Source of the DNA: Planctomycetota bacterium
GTDB taxonomy: Bacteria > Planctomycetota > Planctomycetia > Planctomycetales > Planctomycetaceae
Reading direction: 5' to 3'
Length of the DNA: 64,000 nucleotides
Assembly: GCA_022600195.1 (NCBI GenBank)
Contig: JAHZKX010000010.1
Span: forward strand, 1 to 64,000
Part shown: positions 56,009 through 62,854 of the stretch, in pieces
Layout of the letters: each line of letters starts with the position of its first letter
Numbering within the stretch: position 1 is the first letter of the stretch
The notes under the pieces: model-generated
Seen by the model: the letters and a program-made list of their open reading frames with translations, nothing else
What the model was told of the DNA's origin: nothing
Databases searched by the model: none
Program-made: the position numbers and the translations under genes

Positions 56009-58207
56009 ATGAATGAATCAGAACCTGCTGAGAATACTCCACAGGTGGAGAATCTGAAAACTTCCGAGAAAGGAAGCTCCGATTCTGAGTCCAGCGGAGT
56101 TGATTCCTCTGAAATGACTCTGAAACAGTCAGCGGAAGAAATAACCCAGGCTGCGCATTTAAGTAAAGACCACCTTGCTCTGCCTTCTAAAGTTCCTGGA
56201 TATATTATGGTCCGGTCACTGGGGGAAGGATCGTATGGATCCGTGTGGCTTGCCCAGGAAGAAAATACCGGGAAATATGTTGCGATCAAGTTTTACACTT
56301 ATCGACGAGGGTTGGACTGGTCACTCTTGAATCGAGAAGTAGAAAAACTGGCAGAACTCTATACCTCACGGCATATTATCAGCTTGCACGGAGTTGGATG
56401 GAATAGCGATCCTCCTTATTACATGATGGAATATCTTGAGAATGGTTCTCTGTCATCATTTCTGGAAGCGGGGCCCCTACCCGCATCTGAAGCAGTTCGC
56501 ATCGCAAAAATAGTTTTACTGGCTCTCGTGCATGCACACGGACGTGGGATTTTACATTGCGATTTAAAACCGGCCAATATTCTGCTTGATGCGAATTTTG
56601 AACCAAGACTCTGTGACTTTGGACAATCTCGACTCTCAAGCGAACAAAGTCCCTCTTTGGGGACACTCTATTATATGGCTCCCGAACAGGCTGATCTGCA
56701 GGCAGTACCTGATTCGCGGTGGGATGTATATGCACTCGGGGCTTTGCTTTATCATATGTTATGCGGAAAAGCTCCCTATCGGACAGCAGAAAATGAGCAG
56801 TCCATTCGAAAGTTAAAAACTCTCGAAGAGAAACTTCAGGCCTATCGCGATTTGATCCAAATCTCTCCCCGCCCCGCTGAACATCGCAAAGTTTCCGGCG
56901 TGGATCGACGTTTGGCTGAAATCGTCGATCGCTGTCTTGAAACAGATCCCAAAAAACGATTTCCGAATGCACAATCTGTGCTGACAAGCATGCTGCAAAG
57001 AGAACAGCAGCGGGCAAGAAGACCATTAATTGCACTGGGGATTATTGCTCCTCTCTTGGTGATTATTGGATTAATCCCCGTTGCAGGAGCCGCTGTAAAT
57101 CAAATGGAAAACAGATTTCGAGAAAATCTGACAGAACGAGCATTAAAGAGCGATTCCATTGCGGCCAGTTTATTGTCGCAAAACGTTGCACGGGATCTTC
57201 AGGATCGTCAGGACCAACTAGAGGAGCTATCTCGTAAAACATTGTTGCGTTCTAATCTGGTAAATGAAAAAACATATTCAGTGGTGGGAGATTATTTGAA
57301 GGAAGCAAAGGCAATTGTTGACGAGAAACGGTCAAAGCTGGAACTTGAAAAAGATACGAGTTGGTTTCTTACAAATGACGAAGGGAAGCAAATTTGGCGT
57401 GATCCACTGGGGCCGACAATTGGTCAGAATTTTTCATATCGAGATTATTTTCACGGGCATGGTAAAGAGTATGAAAAAGGAAACGCGCCCAACTCAATTA
57501 AACCAATCACGGAACCTTATATTTGTCAGGTTTTCAAGAGTGAAGCCACTCATCAATGGATGGTGGCTATAGCCGTTCCAATTTGGAATTTACAAAACGA
57601 TAAGGTCTTGGGAGTCTTGGCTAGAACCACGCATCTGGATCAATTACTGTCAGGCTATGATGAAAGTATACGTGGGGATTCTGAAAATAGTGGGGACCGA
57701 AAAATAGCGTTGATAGACAACCGTGATGGAAAAATGCTGGCTCACCCGAGAATGACTGCAAATATTTTACGAAATATGAATCGTGATGAAGTGGACCGTT
57801 TAGTTCTCAAAGAGAAACACTTTGATGAATTGCAATCATTTAAACTGGCACAAGAAAAGAATCGAACTGGTCCATTATCAGCAATAATAAGTGAATATCA
57901 TGATCCCGTAGAAGCAGTGCTTTCAACCAATGATGAGGATAACGTCTGGCTGGCAGCTTTCTCTCCAATAGGTATGACTGGTTGGACGGCCGTTGTTCAG
58001 GAACGTCGGAGTATGGCGCTGCGTCCTGTTACGGAAATGCGAAGTTGGCTTATCCAGTATGGTTTGATTGTGTTGGCAACGAGTTGTCTTTTAGTGTTTA
58101 CAGTCTGGTATTTTGTGATGCGGGTTCTGACAGAACGACGTGCCTGGGATTGGGCTCGTCACCAGTCTGAAAAGCGATCTGAACAGGGTTCTGGATCATC
58201 CCGTTGA
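56009..58207 (+). CDS. Membrane Ser/Thr kinase with extracellular Cache-like sensor
   Basis: A 732-residue Hanks-type kinase. The first 60 residues are polar and disordered. The kinase domain (about 64-330) has GEGSYG at 72-77, Lys94, Glu110, HCDLKPAN at 183-190 (Asp185), DFG at 203-205 and APE at 224-226. The Arg of the usual HRD motif is Cys, so it is a non-RD kinase. A transmembrane helix lies at about 340-363, then a roughly 320-residue outward domain resembling a double Cache sensor, and a second helix near 688-714. It is the first gene of a rightward set with the FHA-cyclase gene 41 bp downstream. Phosphothreonine made by this kinase is a likely ligand for that FHA domain. Confidence 0.92.
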   Translation: MNESEPAENTPQVENLKTSEKGSSDSESSGVDSSEMTLKQSAEEITQAAHLSKDHLALPSKVPGYIMVRSLGEGSYGSVWLAQEENTGKYVAIKFYTYRRGLDWSLLNREVEKLAELYTSRHIISLHGVGWNSDPPYYMMEYLENGSLSSFLEAGPLPASEAVRIAKIVLLALVHAHGRGILHCDLKPANILLDANFEPRLCDFGQSRLSSEQSPSLGTLYYMAPEQADLQAVPDSRWDVYALGALLYHMLCGKAPYRTAENEQSIRKLKTLEEKLQAYRDLIQISPRPAEHRKVSGVDRRLAEIVDRCLETDPKKRFPNAQSVLTSMLQREQQRARRPLIALGIIAPLLVIIGLIPVAGAAVNQMENRFRENLTERALKSDSIAASLLSQNVARDLQDRQDQLEELSRKTLLRSNLVNEKTYSVVGDYLKEAKAIVDEKRSKLELEKDTSWFLTNDEGKQIWRDPLGPTIGQNFSYRDYFHGHGKEYEKGNAPNSIKPITEPYICQVFKSEATHQWMVAIAVPIWNLQNDKVLGVLARTTHLDQLLSGYDESIRGDSENSGDRKIALIDNRDGKMLAHPRMTANILRNMNRDEVDRLVLKEKHFDELQSFKLAQEKNRTGPLSAIISEYHDPVEAVLSTNDEDNVWLAAFSPIGMTGWTAVVQERRSMALRPVTEMRSWLIQYGLIVLATSCLLVFTVWYFVMRVLTERRAWDWARHQSEKRSEQGSGSSR

Positions 58208-58248
58208 CCAAATCATCAACAGAATTCATAAAATGATGGAGATGTTTC

Positions 58249-60033
58249 TTGTTGGAATTAATGATATATGGATCAAATCCTCAGAATTCCAGCAGGATTT
58301 GTCTGGAGAGCGGTCAGGAGCTCATTCTAGGCAGGTCTCCGCAAGCTGATATTTCGGTCCCCTGGGATGATCGAATTTCACGTCAACACGCCATTGTACT
58401 GGTACAGCAGAATCAGCTTTCCGTTTCAAAAATTGCTTCTGCCGAGAATCGTATCTTTTTATCAGGGAGTGAACGGGATGATTTTCTCCTTGAACCTGGA
58501 AATTCATTCGTAATTGGTTCCTCAACCTTTCAATTAGTAAATTCGATATCAAGTTTTTCATCGCCGAGTGAGTCTCCCCTGGAAGAGGTGACATTCAAAC
58601 CGAATGAGTTATTAAAAGTCAGGTATCGTGATGCTGATCAGAGAATTGACGTCTTGGCACATTTACCTGACTTAATTATGGATGCAAGGAATGAAGATGA
58701 TTTGTTCCACCGTCTGGTGACAATGTTGTTGTCTGGTGTGAAGCATGCAGATGCTGTCGCTGTCGTCCGATTGAACGATGAAGATCGCGTGGAAGTGCCA
58801 TTTTGGGAACGCAGACGCCAGACCCAGGGGGAGTTCCGTCCCAGCGGACGACTTGTTCTGGAAGCGGTCAAAAACAGTAGACGAACTGTATTACATGTAT
58901 GGGCAGCCAAAGATGATTCACAGCCCCAGGATGATTATACTGCGGTAGCCGAATTTGACTGGGCATTTTGTACTCCCATTGAAGATGGTGTCTCCAGTAA
59001 GTGGGGGCTCTATGTCGCAGGAAAACTGAATCACCCCTATCAAGTGGATATTCCCGCAGGAGCCAGTGGAATTGATCTTCAAGCTGACGTCAAATTTACA
59101 GAACTTGTTGCTTCGATTGTGAAATCTGTAAGACGTCTTAATCAGCTGGAAAGGCAACAGGCTGGATTGCGTCAGTTCTTTGCCCCACCGATTCTCGCAG
59201 CCATCGGTGATGACTTAAATACTGAGATTCTGGAACCTCGAGAATGTGATGTCACAGTATTATTTTGTGACCTCAGAGGTTTCAGTCAATATGCGGAAGA
59301 TTCATCTGGAGATTTAATCGGGTTGTTGGACCGAGTCAGCCAGGCTTTAGGAATCATGACATCTCATATCCTTGATTTTGGAGGAGTGACTGGAGATTTT
59401 CAGGGGGATGCTGCCTTAGGATTCTGGGGATGGCCCTTCTCATCTGAAGTAGCTCCCCTGGATGCTTGCCGTGCTGCTTTGGCGATTCGCGCTGCCTTCG
59501 AGCAAATCCATCACCAGTCAGATCACCCACTTTCCGATTTCCATATGGGAATTGGAATTGCACATGGGCGAGCCGTAGCTGGGAAAATTGGTACTCATGA
59601 TCAAGTGAAAGTGACAGTATTTGGGCCGGTCGTTAATCTGGCCAGCCGCCTGGAAGGTTTGACAAAACAGTTACGTGTTCCGGTTTTAATGGATGAAGCA
59701 ACAGCTCAAATTATCAGGAGTAAGCTGGACCCAGAGGAAGGTCGTGTTCGTAAACTGGCTCAAATCCTGCCGTATGGTATGGAAAAACCAGTGATTGTCA
59801 GCGAACTCCTGCCTCCAGAATCACAGTCAGAAACACTTACGAATGAACAAGTTGCGTGTTATGAAACAGCCGTAGATTGTTTTGTTCAAGGGCAATGGGA
59901 GGAATCATTTCGTTTACTACATGGGATTCCCCCATTTGATCGTGCACAGGATTTTCTTGCATTACAAATTACACAAACGAACAGAGTCCCACCAGTTGAT
60001 TGGGATGGAACCATCAGGTTTGATAGTAAGTAG
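58249..60033 (+). CDS. FHA-GAF-class III nucleotidyl cyclase
   Basis: A 594-residue soluble protein. FHA domain at about 1-97 (LGRSPQ at 27-32, SRQHA at 44-48), a GAF-like region at about 120-300, and a class III cyclase domain at about 332-515. Metal Asp341 (FCDLRGFS) and Asp387 are kept, as are the transition-state Asn463 and Arg467 (VNLASRLEG). The purine-specifying Lys is Asp383 (GDFQGD), while Thr456 (VTVFG) fits the class IIIb bicarbonate-responsive type. So the product may be cAMP, cGMP or nothing. The start is TTG with GGAG eight bases before. A kinase gene precedes it, suggesting the FHA reads its phosphorylation. Confidence 0.9.
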   Translation: MLELMIYGSNPQNSSRICLESGQELILGRSPQADISVPWDDRISRQHAIVLVQQNQLSVSKIASAENRIFLSGSERDDFLLEPGNSFVIGSSTFQLVNSISSFSSPSESPLEEVTFKPNELLKVRYRDADQRIDVLAHLPDLIMDARNEDDLFHRLVTMLLSGVKHADAVAVVRLNDEDRVEVPFWERRRQTQGEFRPSGRLVLEAVKNSRRTVLHVWAAKDDSQPQDDYTAVAEFDWAFCTPIEDGVSSKWGLYVAGKLNHPYQVDIPAGASGIDLQADVKFTELVASIVKSVRRLNQLERQQAGLRQFFAPPILAAIGDDLNTEILEPRECDVTVLFCDLRGFSQYAEDSSGDLIGLLDRVSQALGIMTSHILDFGGVTGDFQGDAALGFWGWPFSSEVAPLDACRAALAIRAAFEQIHHQSDHPLSDFHMGIGIAHGRAVAGKIGTHDQVKVTVFGPVVNLASRLEGLTKQLRVPVLMDEATAQIIRSKLDPEEGRVRKLAQILPYGMEKPVIVSELLPPESQSETLTNEQVACYETAVDCFVQGQWEESFRLLHGIPPFDRAQDFLALQITQTNRVPPVDWDGTIRFDSK

Positions 60034-60262
60034 TTTCGTCAATTGATGCAAAATCAGTGATCATGATAATCTGCGGTTCTAGTCCGGTTTTACTGGTTGG
60101 GTGGAATGTATTTGTTAAGCAATGTTTTTCTAGCTCATTTTTTACAAAAACTTTGCTCATTCGTATGATTGTGACCTATTTTTAGAAAGGACATCATAGA
60201 GAGGACTTTATGATTTAGTCCTTTACAAATTGGGATAGTCAGAATCGTTGAGAGAACTCACT

Positions 60263-60439
60263 ATGAGCAATACAGAACTGATAACAGAATCGGATCTGAA
60301 GAACCAAACGGAAAAAAATGATAAATTTCTTGAAGCAATAGGAATAGATAGTCGTTCCTACGAAATGTTACTCGTGCTAAATGAAGTTTTTGATTCCATT
60401 CATACTCCCAGCAAGTCTTACGAATTGCGAATTAATTAG
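60263..60439 (+). CDS. Small acidic protein before a response regulator
   Basis: A 58-residue polar protein with no signal or membrane segment. It has a helical middle (FLEAIGIDSRSYEMLLVLNEVFDSI) and ends 15 bp before the response regulator ATG. The stop codon (60437-60439) and spacing suggest translational coupling. It resembles small helical linker or adaptor proteins, but I recognise no family. The ATG at 60263 is preferred; a TTG at 60248 would add five residues. It follows the cyclase gene by 229 bp, so it may have its own promoter, which is not evident. Confidence 0.55.
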   Translation: MSNTELITESDLKNQTEKNDKFLEAIGIDSRSYEMLLVLNEVFDSIHTPSKSYELRIN

Positions 60440-60454
60440 TTGCAGGCTTCGCTC

Positions 60455-61051
60455 ATGATAAAAACATCCGAAAAATCAAATGCCCGCGTCCTGGTGATAG
60501 ATGATGATCCGCTCTTTCGAAATCTGATGGTTTCATTTTTGCGTCGAGAGTATATTGTTTCTGTTGCCAGTGATGGATCAGAGGGGTTTTATAAAGCATT
60601 GGAATATCCACCTGACATCGCGATTGTTGACGTGCAGATGGATGTGTGGGATGGATTACAAACCTTAAAGGCTTTTCGTTCGCATCCCATGCTTACACAA
60701 ACCAAAATCATCATGTTGACGTCCGATGCAAGCAAGGAAACGGTGATTGCTGCGATTCAAAATGGTGCAAATGACTACATTATTAAAACCAGTTTTTCCA
60801 AAACTGAGTTTCTGGAAAAAGTTCGAAAATATACACATCCGGAAATATCAAATGATGTGAACTCTTCCGAGACACAGGATGCAGTCCCTGTATCAAGAGA
60901 GCCAATCCCGGAAGTCCCTCAGCAAGCATCAGCTCGAGAATCCATTGTGGCTGGAACCAGTTCAGCTTCAGTTGAAGACCAACTGGGAGAATTGTCTCTC
61001 GATCAAACCGAAGAAGAACAACTGCAAGAACTGATGGAAGATTGGGATTAA
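60455..61051 (+). CDS. Response regulator with single receiver and acidic tail
   Basis: A 198-residue protein. The receiver (about 11-125) has the acidic pair IDDDP, the phospho-acceptor Asp in IVDVQMD and Lys in YIIKTSF, so phosphorylation looks possible. No DNA-binding or other known output domain follows; instead there is a polar Glu/Gln/Ser-rich tail of about 75 residues ending in EEQLQELMEDWD, which could be an interaction surface. No histidine kinase is next to it; the nearest kinase is the Hanks-type one 2.2 kb upstream. It ends the rightward set, before a strong bidirectional terminator. Confidence 0.9.
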   Translation: MIKTSEKSNARVLVIDDDPLFRNLMVSFLRREYIVSVASDGSEGFYKALEYPPDIAIVDVQMDVWDGLQTLKAFRSHPMLTQTKIIMLTSDASKETVIAAIQNGANDYIIKTSFSKTEFLEKVRKYTHPEISNDVNSSETQDAVPVSREPIPEVPQQASARESIVAGTSSASVEDQLGELSLDQTEEEQLQELMEDWD

Positions 61052-61144: not shown

Positions 61145-61180
61145 AAAAAAGGGCACAGACTTTAGTCTGTGCCCTTTTTT
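61145..61180. terminator. Bidirectional intrinsic terminator
   Basis: A perfect 10-bp GC-rich stem (GGGCACAGAC and GTCTGTGCCC, loop TTTA) at 61151-61174 is flanked by A6 on the left and T6 on the right. It serves the rightward response regulator gene and the leftward gene at 61202 equally, lying in the 150-bp gap between their stop codons. Confidence 0.95.
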
Positions 61181-61201
61181 ATCAGATATTACGAAATAAG
61201 G

Positions 61202-62854
61202 TTACAGGGTTTCTTTGGAGAACTTGGCAATAATATTGCCAATAAATCGTAAAATTCCTTTGTCCAATTTCGCGTTGCCATTAATGGAATCCCCGTCTCG
61301 CTTCATCACAAAGGTGAAAGTGTCATCAGCATTTGTCAGGGATTTTAATGCCAGATCACGTATTTCCTGATTCCCCTTCTTTTCCCTGAGTCTGTCGATC
61401 ATTTTTAACCAGGGAAGAGTTTTCAGATTAAGCTCTATTACGTTAGGACTGATATCTTCGGGAGGGTCTTCTTTGACCAGTTTGGCAGCAGTTTTAATGC
61501 GATCAATTGCGTTGATTCCAGCAGCCATCCATAACGCATCGGGAGTACTACCGACATATAATGCCTCCCCTGCTCCAAACTGTTCATAAAAACCATCCTG
61601 GAATCGTTCTTTGATGTTGATTTTGTGAATACTCAGGCCATCTTCTTTTACAAAATCAAGCTCAACCGTTTGATCCTTAAGTAATTTAGGGAGCAGCTCA
61701 ACGACTTCTCTCAGCTTGGTACCATCTTTTGATCGTATTCCACCCAGCATGATGTATTTACCACCATCGACGGGATTGGAATCAATGAAGGCGTCAATTA
61801 AAGATGCTTCCTTACCTGCATCAAGCATTTGAATTACCAGTTCGGCTACTTTGCTGCCCGCTGTTATTTGTTCCTCAGTTAACTTCTTATTATTGGCGAT
61901 ACGATCTTTAAGGGTTGGCAATAATAACTTGTAAAATTCTGTGAAATTTGTCTTTCTCATTTCATCCAGCGGATGATTAATTCGGCCATTGAGAATTCCA
62001 TCTTGTTTGACAGGAATCTTGGCAAAATAACTTGGTTTCGTGGCAAATTGCTTGATACTTTCTTCGAGAGAAGTCCCTTCAATTGCTTTCAATGTAAACT
62101 CGAGGCGTCCTTCATGCTTTGTAGAGTCGGTGGTCCAACCAATAACCATTTTTTGCGATTCCGCAAATAATCGTTCCAGTTCATCCATCTGGTGCGTAAA
62201 AGCCAGTTTTCTCAATTCAAAAGCATTTTCAGTTTCATCACGCTTTTTCTTGACGGCAGCCAGTAATTGTTTACGAGTACTCGTCATCGATTTTTTACGG
62301 GCATCAACACCTTCTTTTTCATTAGTAATCAATGCACTGAAATCGTATTTTTTCTTTAAAAGATCTTGAACTCTTTTGAGAGGATCTTCTATCTCTTCTA
62401 CTTCAGTGAGCTTTTCAGAAATGACGACATACTTAAATTTCTTTAAGTATTTCATAAATCCCTGAAACAGGTTACCTAACTTGTAGGGACCATTTCTTTG
62501 TTTTTTTGATGAAATCTCGAAGACTTCCAACGCCTCTCGGAAAACTCCGAGATCAGTAACGGGAAGTATTAATCGATAACGTTCCTCCTGGTTCTCTCCG
62601 AGCAAGATGTCGATTCTCAATGGACGTTGTTGATCAATTCCTTCAAGGAACGTGGGAAGCAATTCATCTAATTTATCCCACCCTGTTTTGTCTCCCGCAA
62701 GATCCAAAACAAGAAATTTCAGATCTGCAATCATGCCCTCGGCATTGATCTGAACGAGCGAGATATTAGGGGCAGTAGAATCCTCGGCAATGGCTGTTTT
62801 GGAGAGAGAGATTCCAAGCAATAAGATCAAAGCAAAATGAGCAATACGGCTCAT
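61202..62854 (-). CDS. Secreted protein of unknown function
   Basis: A 550-residue protein with a signal peptide (ALILLLGISLSKTAIA, cleaved near residue 23). The mature part has mixed alpha/beta and helical stretches with many charged residues, including a coiled-coil-like basic and acidic region around 195-240 (KQLLAAVKKKRDETENAF). No catalytic motif or repeated module is seen and I do not recognise the family. Similar soluble secreted proteins are common in Planctomycetes, but that is a loose remark. The gene has an AGGA-type site just before its ATG (GGAGGAAAT). It ends at the bidirectional terminator. Confidence 0.8.
   Translation of the reverse strand: MSRIAHFALILLLGISLSKTAIAEDSTAPNISLVQINAEGMIADLKFLVLDLAGDKTGWDKLDELLPTFLEGIDQQRPLRIDILLGENQEERYRLILPVTDLGVFREALEVFEISSKKQRNGPYKLGNLFQGFMKYLKKFKYVVISEKLTEVEEIEDPLKRVQDLLKKKYDFSALITNEKEGVDARKKSMTSTRKQLLAAVKKKRDETENAFELRKLAFTHQMDELERLFAESQKMVIGWTTDSTKHEGRLEFTLKAIEGTSLEESIKQFATKPSYFAKIPVKQDGILNGRINHPLDEMRKTNFTEFYKLLLPTLKDRIANNKKLTEEQITAGSKVAELVIQMLDAGKEASLIDAFIDSNPVDGGKYIMLGGIRSKDGTKLREVVELLPKLLKDQTVELDFVKEDGLSIHKINIKERFQDGFYEQFGAGEALYVGSTPDALWMAAGINAIDRIKTAAKLVKEDPPEDISPNVIELNLKTLPWLKMIDRLREKKGNQEIRDLALKSLTNADDTFTFVMKRDGDSINGNAKLDKGILRFIGNIIAKFSKETL

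Follow-up and report, generated by a model that had tools for sequence, protein, structure and literature searches.

The window, a stretch of 64,000 nucleotides at the start of a contig from a member of the Planctomycetaceae, contains four open reading frames (ORFs) on the forward (+) strand at 56009-58207, 58249-60033, 60263-60439, and 60455-61051. The first encodes a membrane Ser/Thr kinase of 732 aa, and the second encodes a 594-aa protein with a TTG start, in which an FHA domain, a GAF-fold domain, and a class III nucleotidyl cyclase domain are combined. A gap of 229 bp (60034-60262) separates the cyclase gene from that of a 58-aa protein, and the last gene encodes a receiver-only response regulator. 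The ORFs and their domains agree with a preliminary description of the locus as a rightward four-gene module, including the length given there for the gap. The small ORF, with an ATG start at 60263, is nested in a TTG-started ORF from 60248; the receiver ORF starts with an ATG at 60455, 15 nt past the stop codon of the small gene, and a TTG-started ORF for it begins at 60440. The neighbors of the cyclase gene are those of the kinase, the small protein, the receiver, and gyrA, and the retrieved relatives belonged to Gimesia and other Planctomycetaceae. Between the receiver gene and a converging gene at 61202-62854, a hairpin flanked by A and T runs (GGGCACAGAC-TTTA-GTCTGTGCCC; 61147-61183) resembles a strong bidirectional terminator. 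The converging gene encodes a 550-aa protein without a Pfam match and is conserved at this place in the genus.

The kinase protein matched Pfam Pkinase (E 4e-47) and dCache_1 (E 3e-14), both exceeding the cut-off. Its cytoplasmic N-terminal tail is followed by the kinase domain (residues 67-324), a first transmembrane (TM) segment (~340-363), an outward-facing dCache domain (386-663), a second TM segment (~684-706), and a short tail; the TM segments are hydrophobic stretches read from the sequence. The HxDLKxxN, DFG, VAIK, and APE motifs identify it as a Hanks-type kinase, and HCDLKPAN and DFG were conserved in an alignment of 22 homologs. Two narrower assignments were rejected. Against the PASTA kinase model (PknB/StkP; NCBIfam NF033483), the protein scored 139.7 bits with a cut-off of 450, and its outer part is a dCache domain. 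Against the model for the MAD6 kinase of MADS defense (NF047741), it scored 124.1 bits with a cut-off of 460, and no mad-type neighbors were present; the PADLOC profile for this kinase type, which the protein matched, carries no cut-off. In total, this genome gave 39 kinase hits. A single internal stop, due to decay or assembly error, was seen in the kinase-homolog matches at G101:C205, G060:C1, G173:C3, G030:C456, and G027:C77.

In the second protein, the FHA domain (58324-58518, + strand) scored 25.1 bits against a Pfam cut-off of 20.7 and contains the residues of a phosphothreonine reader (GR, SxxH, and Asn). Among 35 homologs, the pocket residues R29, H47, and N67 were invariant and S44 was at least 90% conserved. 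A Pfam search for GAF gave no match in any of these homologs. The AlphaFold model of the middle domain (residues 112-312, pTM 0.80) was nevertheless matched by Foldseek to GAF domains of phytochromes, PDE5A, and histidine/sensor kinases in the PDB, so that the earlier GAF call held (58633-59028, + strand). With the model of the full protein, Foldseek retrieved CyaB, CyaC, Cya2, and a phytochrome-cyclase fusion. The C-terminal domain (59248-59685, + strand) matched Guanylate_cyc (PF00211) with 45.5 bits against a cut-off of 21.9 and has the class III fold. Alignments located its key residues at D341, D383, D387, T456, P460, N463, and R467, and the metal-binding D341 and D387 and the transition-state N463 and R467 were invariant in the 35 homologs.

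We then considered the substrate. Alignment to solved cyclases placed D383 at the position of the ATP-specifying Lys, and T456 fell on the second base contact. At these two positions, Lys followed by Asp or Thr characterizes adenylyl cyclases (PMC4215837, PMC7384201), and guanylyl cyclases have Glu, followed by Cys, Ser, Thr, His, Ala, or Gly at the second contact (PMC4215837). The adenylyl cyclase signature was rejected because Lys is replaced by Asp in all 35 aligned homologs, with Thr at the second position. Compared with the guanylyl cyclase signature, the first position is acidic but is Asp rather than Glu, and the second is Thr. Because this combination is nearer to the guanylyl cyclase pattern, GTP may be a likelier substrate than ATP, an assignment of low confidence. 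Asp also occupied the Lys position in more distant planctomycete cyclases, and cyclases with the canonical Lys occur in the same class, indicating that the assignment of D383 is not an alignment artifact. Class III cyclases with Asp at this position and a GPxGHxVN-like loop were observed at L188, L190, L193, L195, and L203, and the Asp-type planctomycete cyclases form a broader clade whose base contacts are non-canonical.

The replacement of Lys by Asp in 35 of 35 homologs would also fit an enzyme that has lost catalytic activity or yields an unusual product (cCMP or cUMP, as in Pycsar) and serves mainly as a phospho-dependent scaffold, and the PADLOC profiles for Pycsar cyclases did match the catalytic domain. 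However, drift would not keep both metal-binding Asp residues and the Asn/Arg pair invariant, no Pycsar-type effector adjoins the cyclase, and proteins with cNMP-binding domains are encoded in the same genome. We regard a dead or unusual enzyme as unlikely. As a class, a Pycsar system was rejected because the cyclase has no adjoining cyclic-nucleotide-gated effector.

PF00211 matched only two proteins in this genome, both of them FHA-cyclases of the same family. The gene of the second lies in a redox locus (L093:3829-8884; G000:C51). Its divergent neighbors encode a twin cNMP-binding/4Fe-4S ferredoxin fusion and multiheme cytochromes, and the genes downstream encode a further cytochrome, an ECF sigma factor, and a TPR-repeat kinase.

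Next, we surveyed the kinase and the cyclase in 198 genomes of the class, calling a gene present when a strong homolog (E below 1e-50) was detected. Both were present in 106 genomes and neither in 79; 10 genomes had only the cyclase and 3 only the kinase (Fisher p 9e-40, without a correction for relatedness). Even in family f1, some genomes lacked both genes although other members carry the two. Within 4 kb of a cyclase gene lay 59 of 115 kinase genes, and all 59 were upstream on the same strand; in about half of the genomes the two genes were non-adjacent. No strong cyclase homolog was found outside the class among 149 sampled genomes of the phylum. Conserved gene order beside gyrA, without functional coupling of the signaling genes, would explain the linkage inside the genus, where a block that runs from a sugar-nucleotide gene past gyrA into two unrelated genes is kept in its entirety. 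By contrast, the flanking genes differ between families (f2, f3, f5, f7, and others) while kinase and cyclase stay adjacent and in constant order, and general conservation of gene order does not explain this; furthermore, both genes are missing together in families whose other members carry them. An origin of the linkage in gene order alone is thus highly improbable. The preliminary description had proposed a conserved neighborhood as a check, and for the kinase and cyclase it was found in eight named families (f1, f2, f3, f5, f7, f9, f10, and f14), or nine when the divergent second pair of f3 is counted apart. These results indicate that the kinase and the cyclase are a deeply conserved pair. 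The second pair of f3, in the same order, was observed at L183, L182, G065:C2, G062:C1:1.54 Mb, G163:C355, and G170:C155.

We also examined the N-terminal tail of the kinase. Between genera, the tail was unalignable apart from T37-x-x-Q40 and S52 at +15 (56117-56164, + strand). Thr with Ser at +15 was present in 81 of the 84 scored kinases, the +3 residue being Gln in 72 and Met in 4, and seven kinases that the script left unscored showed the same element by eye. The pattern T-x-x-[QM] with Ser at +15 occurred in 76 of the 84 kinases, whereas shuffled sequences gave 1.7 on average and at most 5, relatedness being uncorrected. The element was also kept where the kinase and cyclase genes are unlinked, and the full element was absent from nine other kinases of this genome. 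Of the three scored kinases without it, one was that of G053, a genome in which no cyclase was detected, and the other two were of the divergent type; the divergent-type kinases of f3 that could be read had no T37 element.

FHA domains bind phosphothreonine and often discriminate at the +3 position, a rule that is not universal, and in Rad53 FHA1 the +3 residue is attracted by Arg83, two residues before the pocket Ser85 (PMC4037201). The counterpart of Arg83 in the window is R42. When the +3 residue of the kinase was Met, the FHA domain of the cyclase had Phe at the +3-reader position in all 12 pairs that could be read, versus one of 69 Gln-type pairs (G036). The FHA domain of G047 was counted as Phe from direct readings, and for G035, which has a Phe-type FHA domain, no kinase was found in the assembly. 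The Met/Phe pairs include one from f1 (G159), which switched independently of f3. This covariation arose at least twice; about two origins are few, making it strong but not decisive evidence. Because T37-x-x-Q40 has the shape of an FHA ligand and its +3 residue covaries with the reader, we favor a model in which phospho-T37 docks on the cyclase's FHA domain. The earlier proposal that the FHA domain binds the kinase's own phosphosites is, to this extent, supported at the sequence level.

Co-occurrence and adjacency leave the contact between the two proteins unspecified. The kinase could instead phosphorylate the cyclase or a third protein, with the FHA domain binding in cis or to a different phosphoprotein and T37 belonging to an autoinhibitory or activation-related element. 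An intramolecular role is possible because T37 lies within a longer conserved element that reaches S52, beyond the needs of a bare docking motif, and T37 was retained in two of the three kinases whose genome has no detected cyclase. However, such a role would not lead one to expect the +3 residue to vary together with the FHA pocket of the same genome's cyclase, and we find this arrangement improbable compared with docking of phospho-T37. The FHA domain could also read other phosphoproteins in a genome with this number of kinases, and the second FHA-cyclase does not adjoin a kinase of the present type.

The receiver protein matched Pfam Response_reg (E 6e-23) and no other domain; it has an acidic pocket, the phosphoacceptor D59, and a variable linker, and lacks an output domain. 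Its C-terminus is conserved as LQE[IL][MI][DE]xW[DE]-COOH, with a looser form among orthologs (L-Q-x-[hydrophobic]-x-[DE]-x-W-[DE]). In the window, it reads LQELMEDWD before the stop codon (61022-61048, + strand), and the coding pattern for this sequence had a single occurrence in this genome and in each of three further genomes among the 13 searched, always at the receiver gene. The 58-aa protein has a conserved core, R-S-x-E-M-L-x-x-L-N-x-x-F-D, at residues 31-46. Homologs with the core [ML]-L-x-x-[LI]-N-x-x-[FW]-D were encoded just 5' of the receiver gene in ~10 of 15 genomes outside the genus. Compared with 200 shuffles, the core gave counts of 0 or 1 for eight genomes and 4 for one, and that of G201 was recognized by eye only. 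The small ORF, listed in the preliminary description, is a real gene with same-core homologs in other genera. In two of these genomes the receiver gene is unlinked from the cyclase gene, and at L118 and L121 the small gene was seen to accompany such an unlinked receiver.

Receiver orthologs were found in 22 of the 198 genomes, all of f1 and all with the kinase and the cyclase; the gene lay just downstream of the cyclase in 18 and elsewhere in four. These results indicate that the small protein and the receiver are a second conserved unit, with a weaker link to the kinase-cyclase pair, as had been suspected from the gap. Four-gene synteny, as first envisaged, was therefore found across families for the kinase and cyclase, and did not extend to the other two genes, which are restricted to f1 and sometimes lie elsewhere in the genome. 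A promoter-like site in the gap (60141-60169, 10/12), of a kind not above chance regionally, is in line with separate transcription of the small and receiver genes. The gap gave a fold z of -2.1 and no Rfam match, and no RNA element was recognized there.

All four genes might still constitute one system, an extension of the kinase-cyclase mechanism and not exclusive of it, in which the receiver is phosphorylated by a histidine kinase from elsewhere and gates the kinase or cyclase, and the small protein competes through a similar helical motif (ExLxxLNxxFD, compared with LQExMEDWD in the receiver). The presence of the pair in 22 of 22 receiver genomes, the position directly 3' of the cyclase in 18, and the conservation of both short motifs between genera point in this direction. 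However, in f1 nearly all genomes have the pair, so that co-occurrence says little; the receiver gene lies elsewhere in four genomes, and the two motifs were judged alike by eye only. We consider a single four-gene system possible but lean against it.

For the kinase and the cyclase themselves, a split receptor cyclase is the probable arrangement. The dCache domain would sense something outside the cytoplasm and control how active the Ser/Thr kinase on the cytoplasmic side is. The kinase would phosphorylate its own N-terminal tail at T37, and the cyclase would then bind phospho-T37 through its FHA domain, reading Q40 at +3 via the loop around R42. This docking may join two cyclase chains at the membrane or lift an inhibition relayed through the GAF domain and a coiled-coil segment, and in either case would change cyclic-nucleotide synthesis. 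With an acidic D383 at the ATP-specifying Lys position, conversion of GTP to cGMP would be likelier than that of ATP to cAMP. The receiver and its small partner may provide a second input or act as an adaptor through short helical tail motifs. In its most specific form, the proposal would be a two-protein receptor guanylyl cyclase with a phosphothreonine tether, in which the kinase senses the outside, the FHA-docked cyclase makes cGMP, and the receiver and small protein are extra inputs sharing a single docking groove; we offer this version as speculative and rather doubtful.

Planctomycete genomes each encode dozens of Ser/Thr kinases (39 hits here), few with an assigned output. One class-wide kinase now gains a specific predicted output, addressable at the single residues T37, Q40, and R42 of the FHA domain. 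If the proposal is true, Hanks-type kinase signaling is tied to cyclic-nucleotide signaling via a phospho-dependent contact. Since both class III cyclases found here carry an FHA domain, such synthesis may be under phosphothreonine control throughout, and the conserved Lys-to-Asp change raises the question of planctomycete cGMP.

Kinase-to-FHA-protein signaling, cyclases, and kinase-cyclase fusions are already known. Mycobacterial PknB with FhaA and FhaB exemplifies pairs of a membrane Ser/Thr kinase and FHA proteins, which resemble the present pair in that phosphosites of the kinase are read by an FHA protein and the genes are often near each other. Such signaling is also described for PknQ and MupFHA, where the site lies in the activation loop (PMC4238996). 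The mycobacterial FHA proteins are not nucleotidyl cyclases, however, and the activation-loop site differs from the putative N-terminal tail site proposed here. In Myxococcus PKN2, a kinase and a cyclase-like domain are linked in a single fused protein (PMC1262709), whereas here they are separate; PKN2 has Glu/Thr at the base-contact positions in place of D383/T456. Pycsar cyclases share the bacterial class III cyclase fold, and the PADLOC PycC profile matched, but in Pycsar a gated effector is adjacent. One study devoted to planctomycete kinases (PMC11032199) makes no mention of a cyclase. In the literature searched on FHA domains, cyclases, and planctomycetes, with most subscription papers outside the search, we found neither a described match for the kinase/FHA-cyclase pair nor a described cyclic-nucleotide pathway in this bacterial class. 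Synechocystis Cya1 is a cyanobacterial protein in which an FHA domain is linked to a class III cyclase; we know of no dedicated partner kinase for it. Animal receptor guanylyl cyclases consist of an outside sensor, a membrane span, a kinase-like part, which is a pseudokinase, and a class III cyclase, and the planctomycete pair has corresponding parts in one line. By contrast with the animal receptors, in which all parts are fused, the parts here are divided between two proteins, the kinase has full catalytic motifs, and the two proteins are putatively joined by phosphothreonine and the FHA domain.
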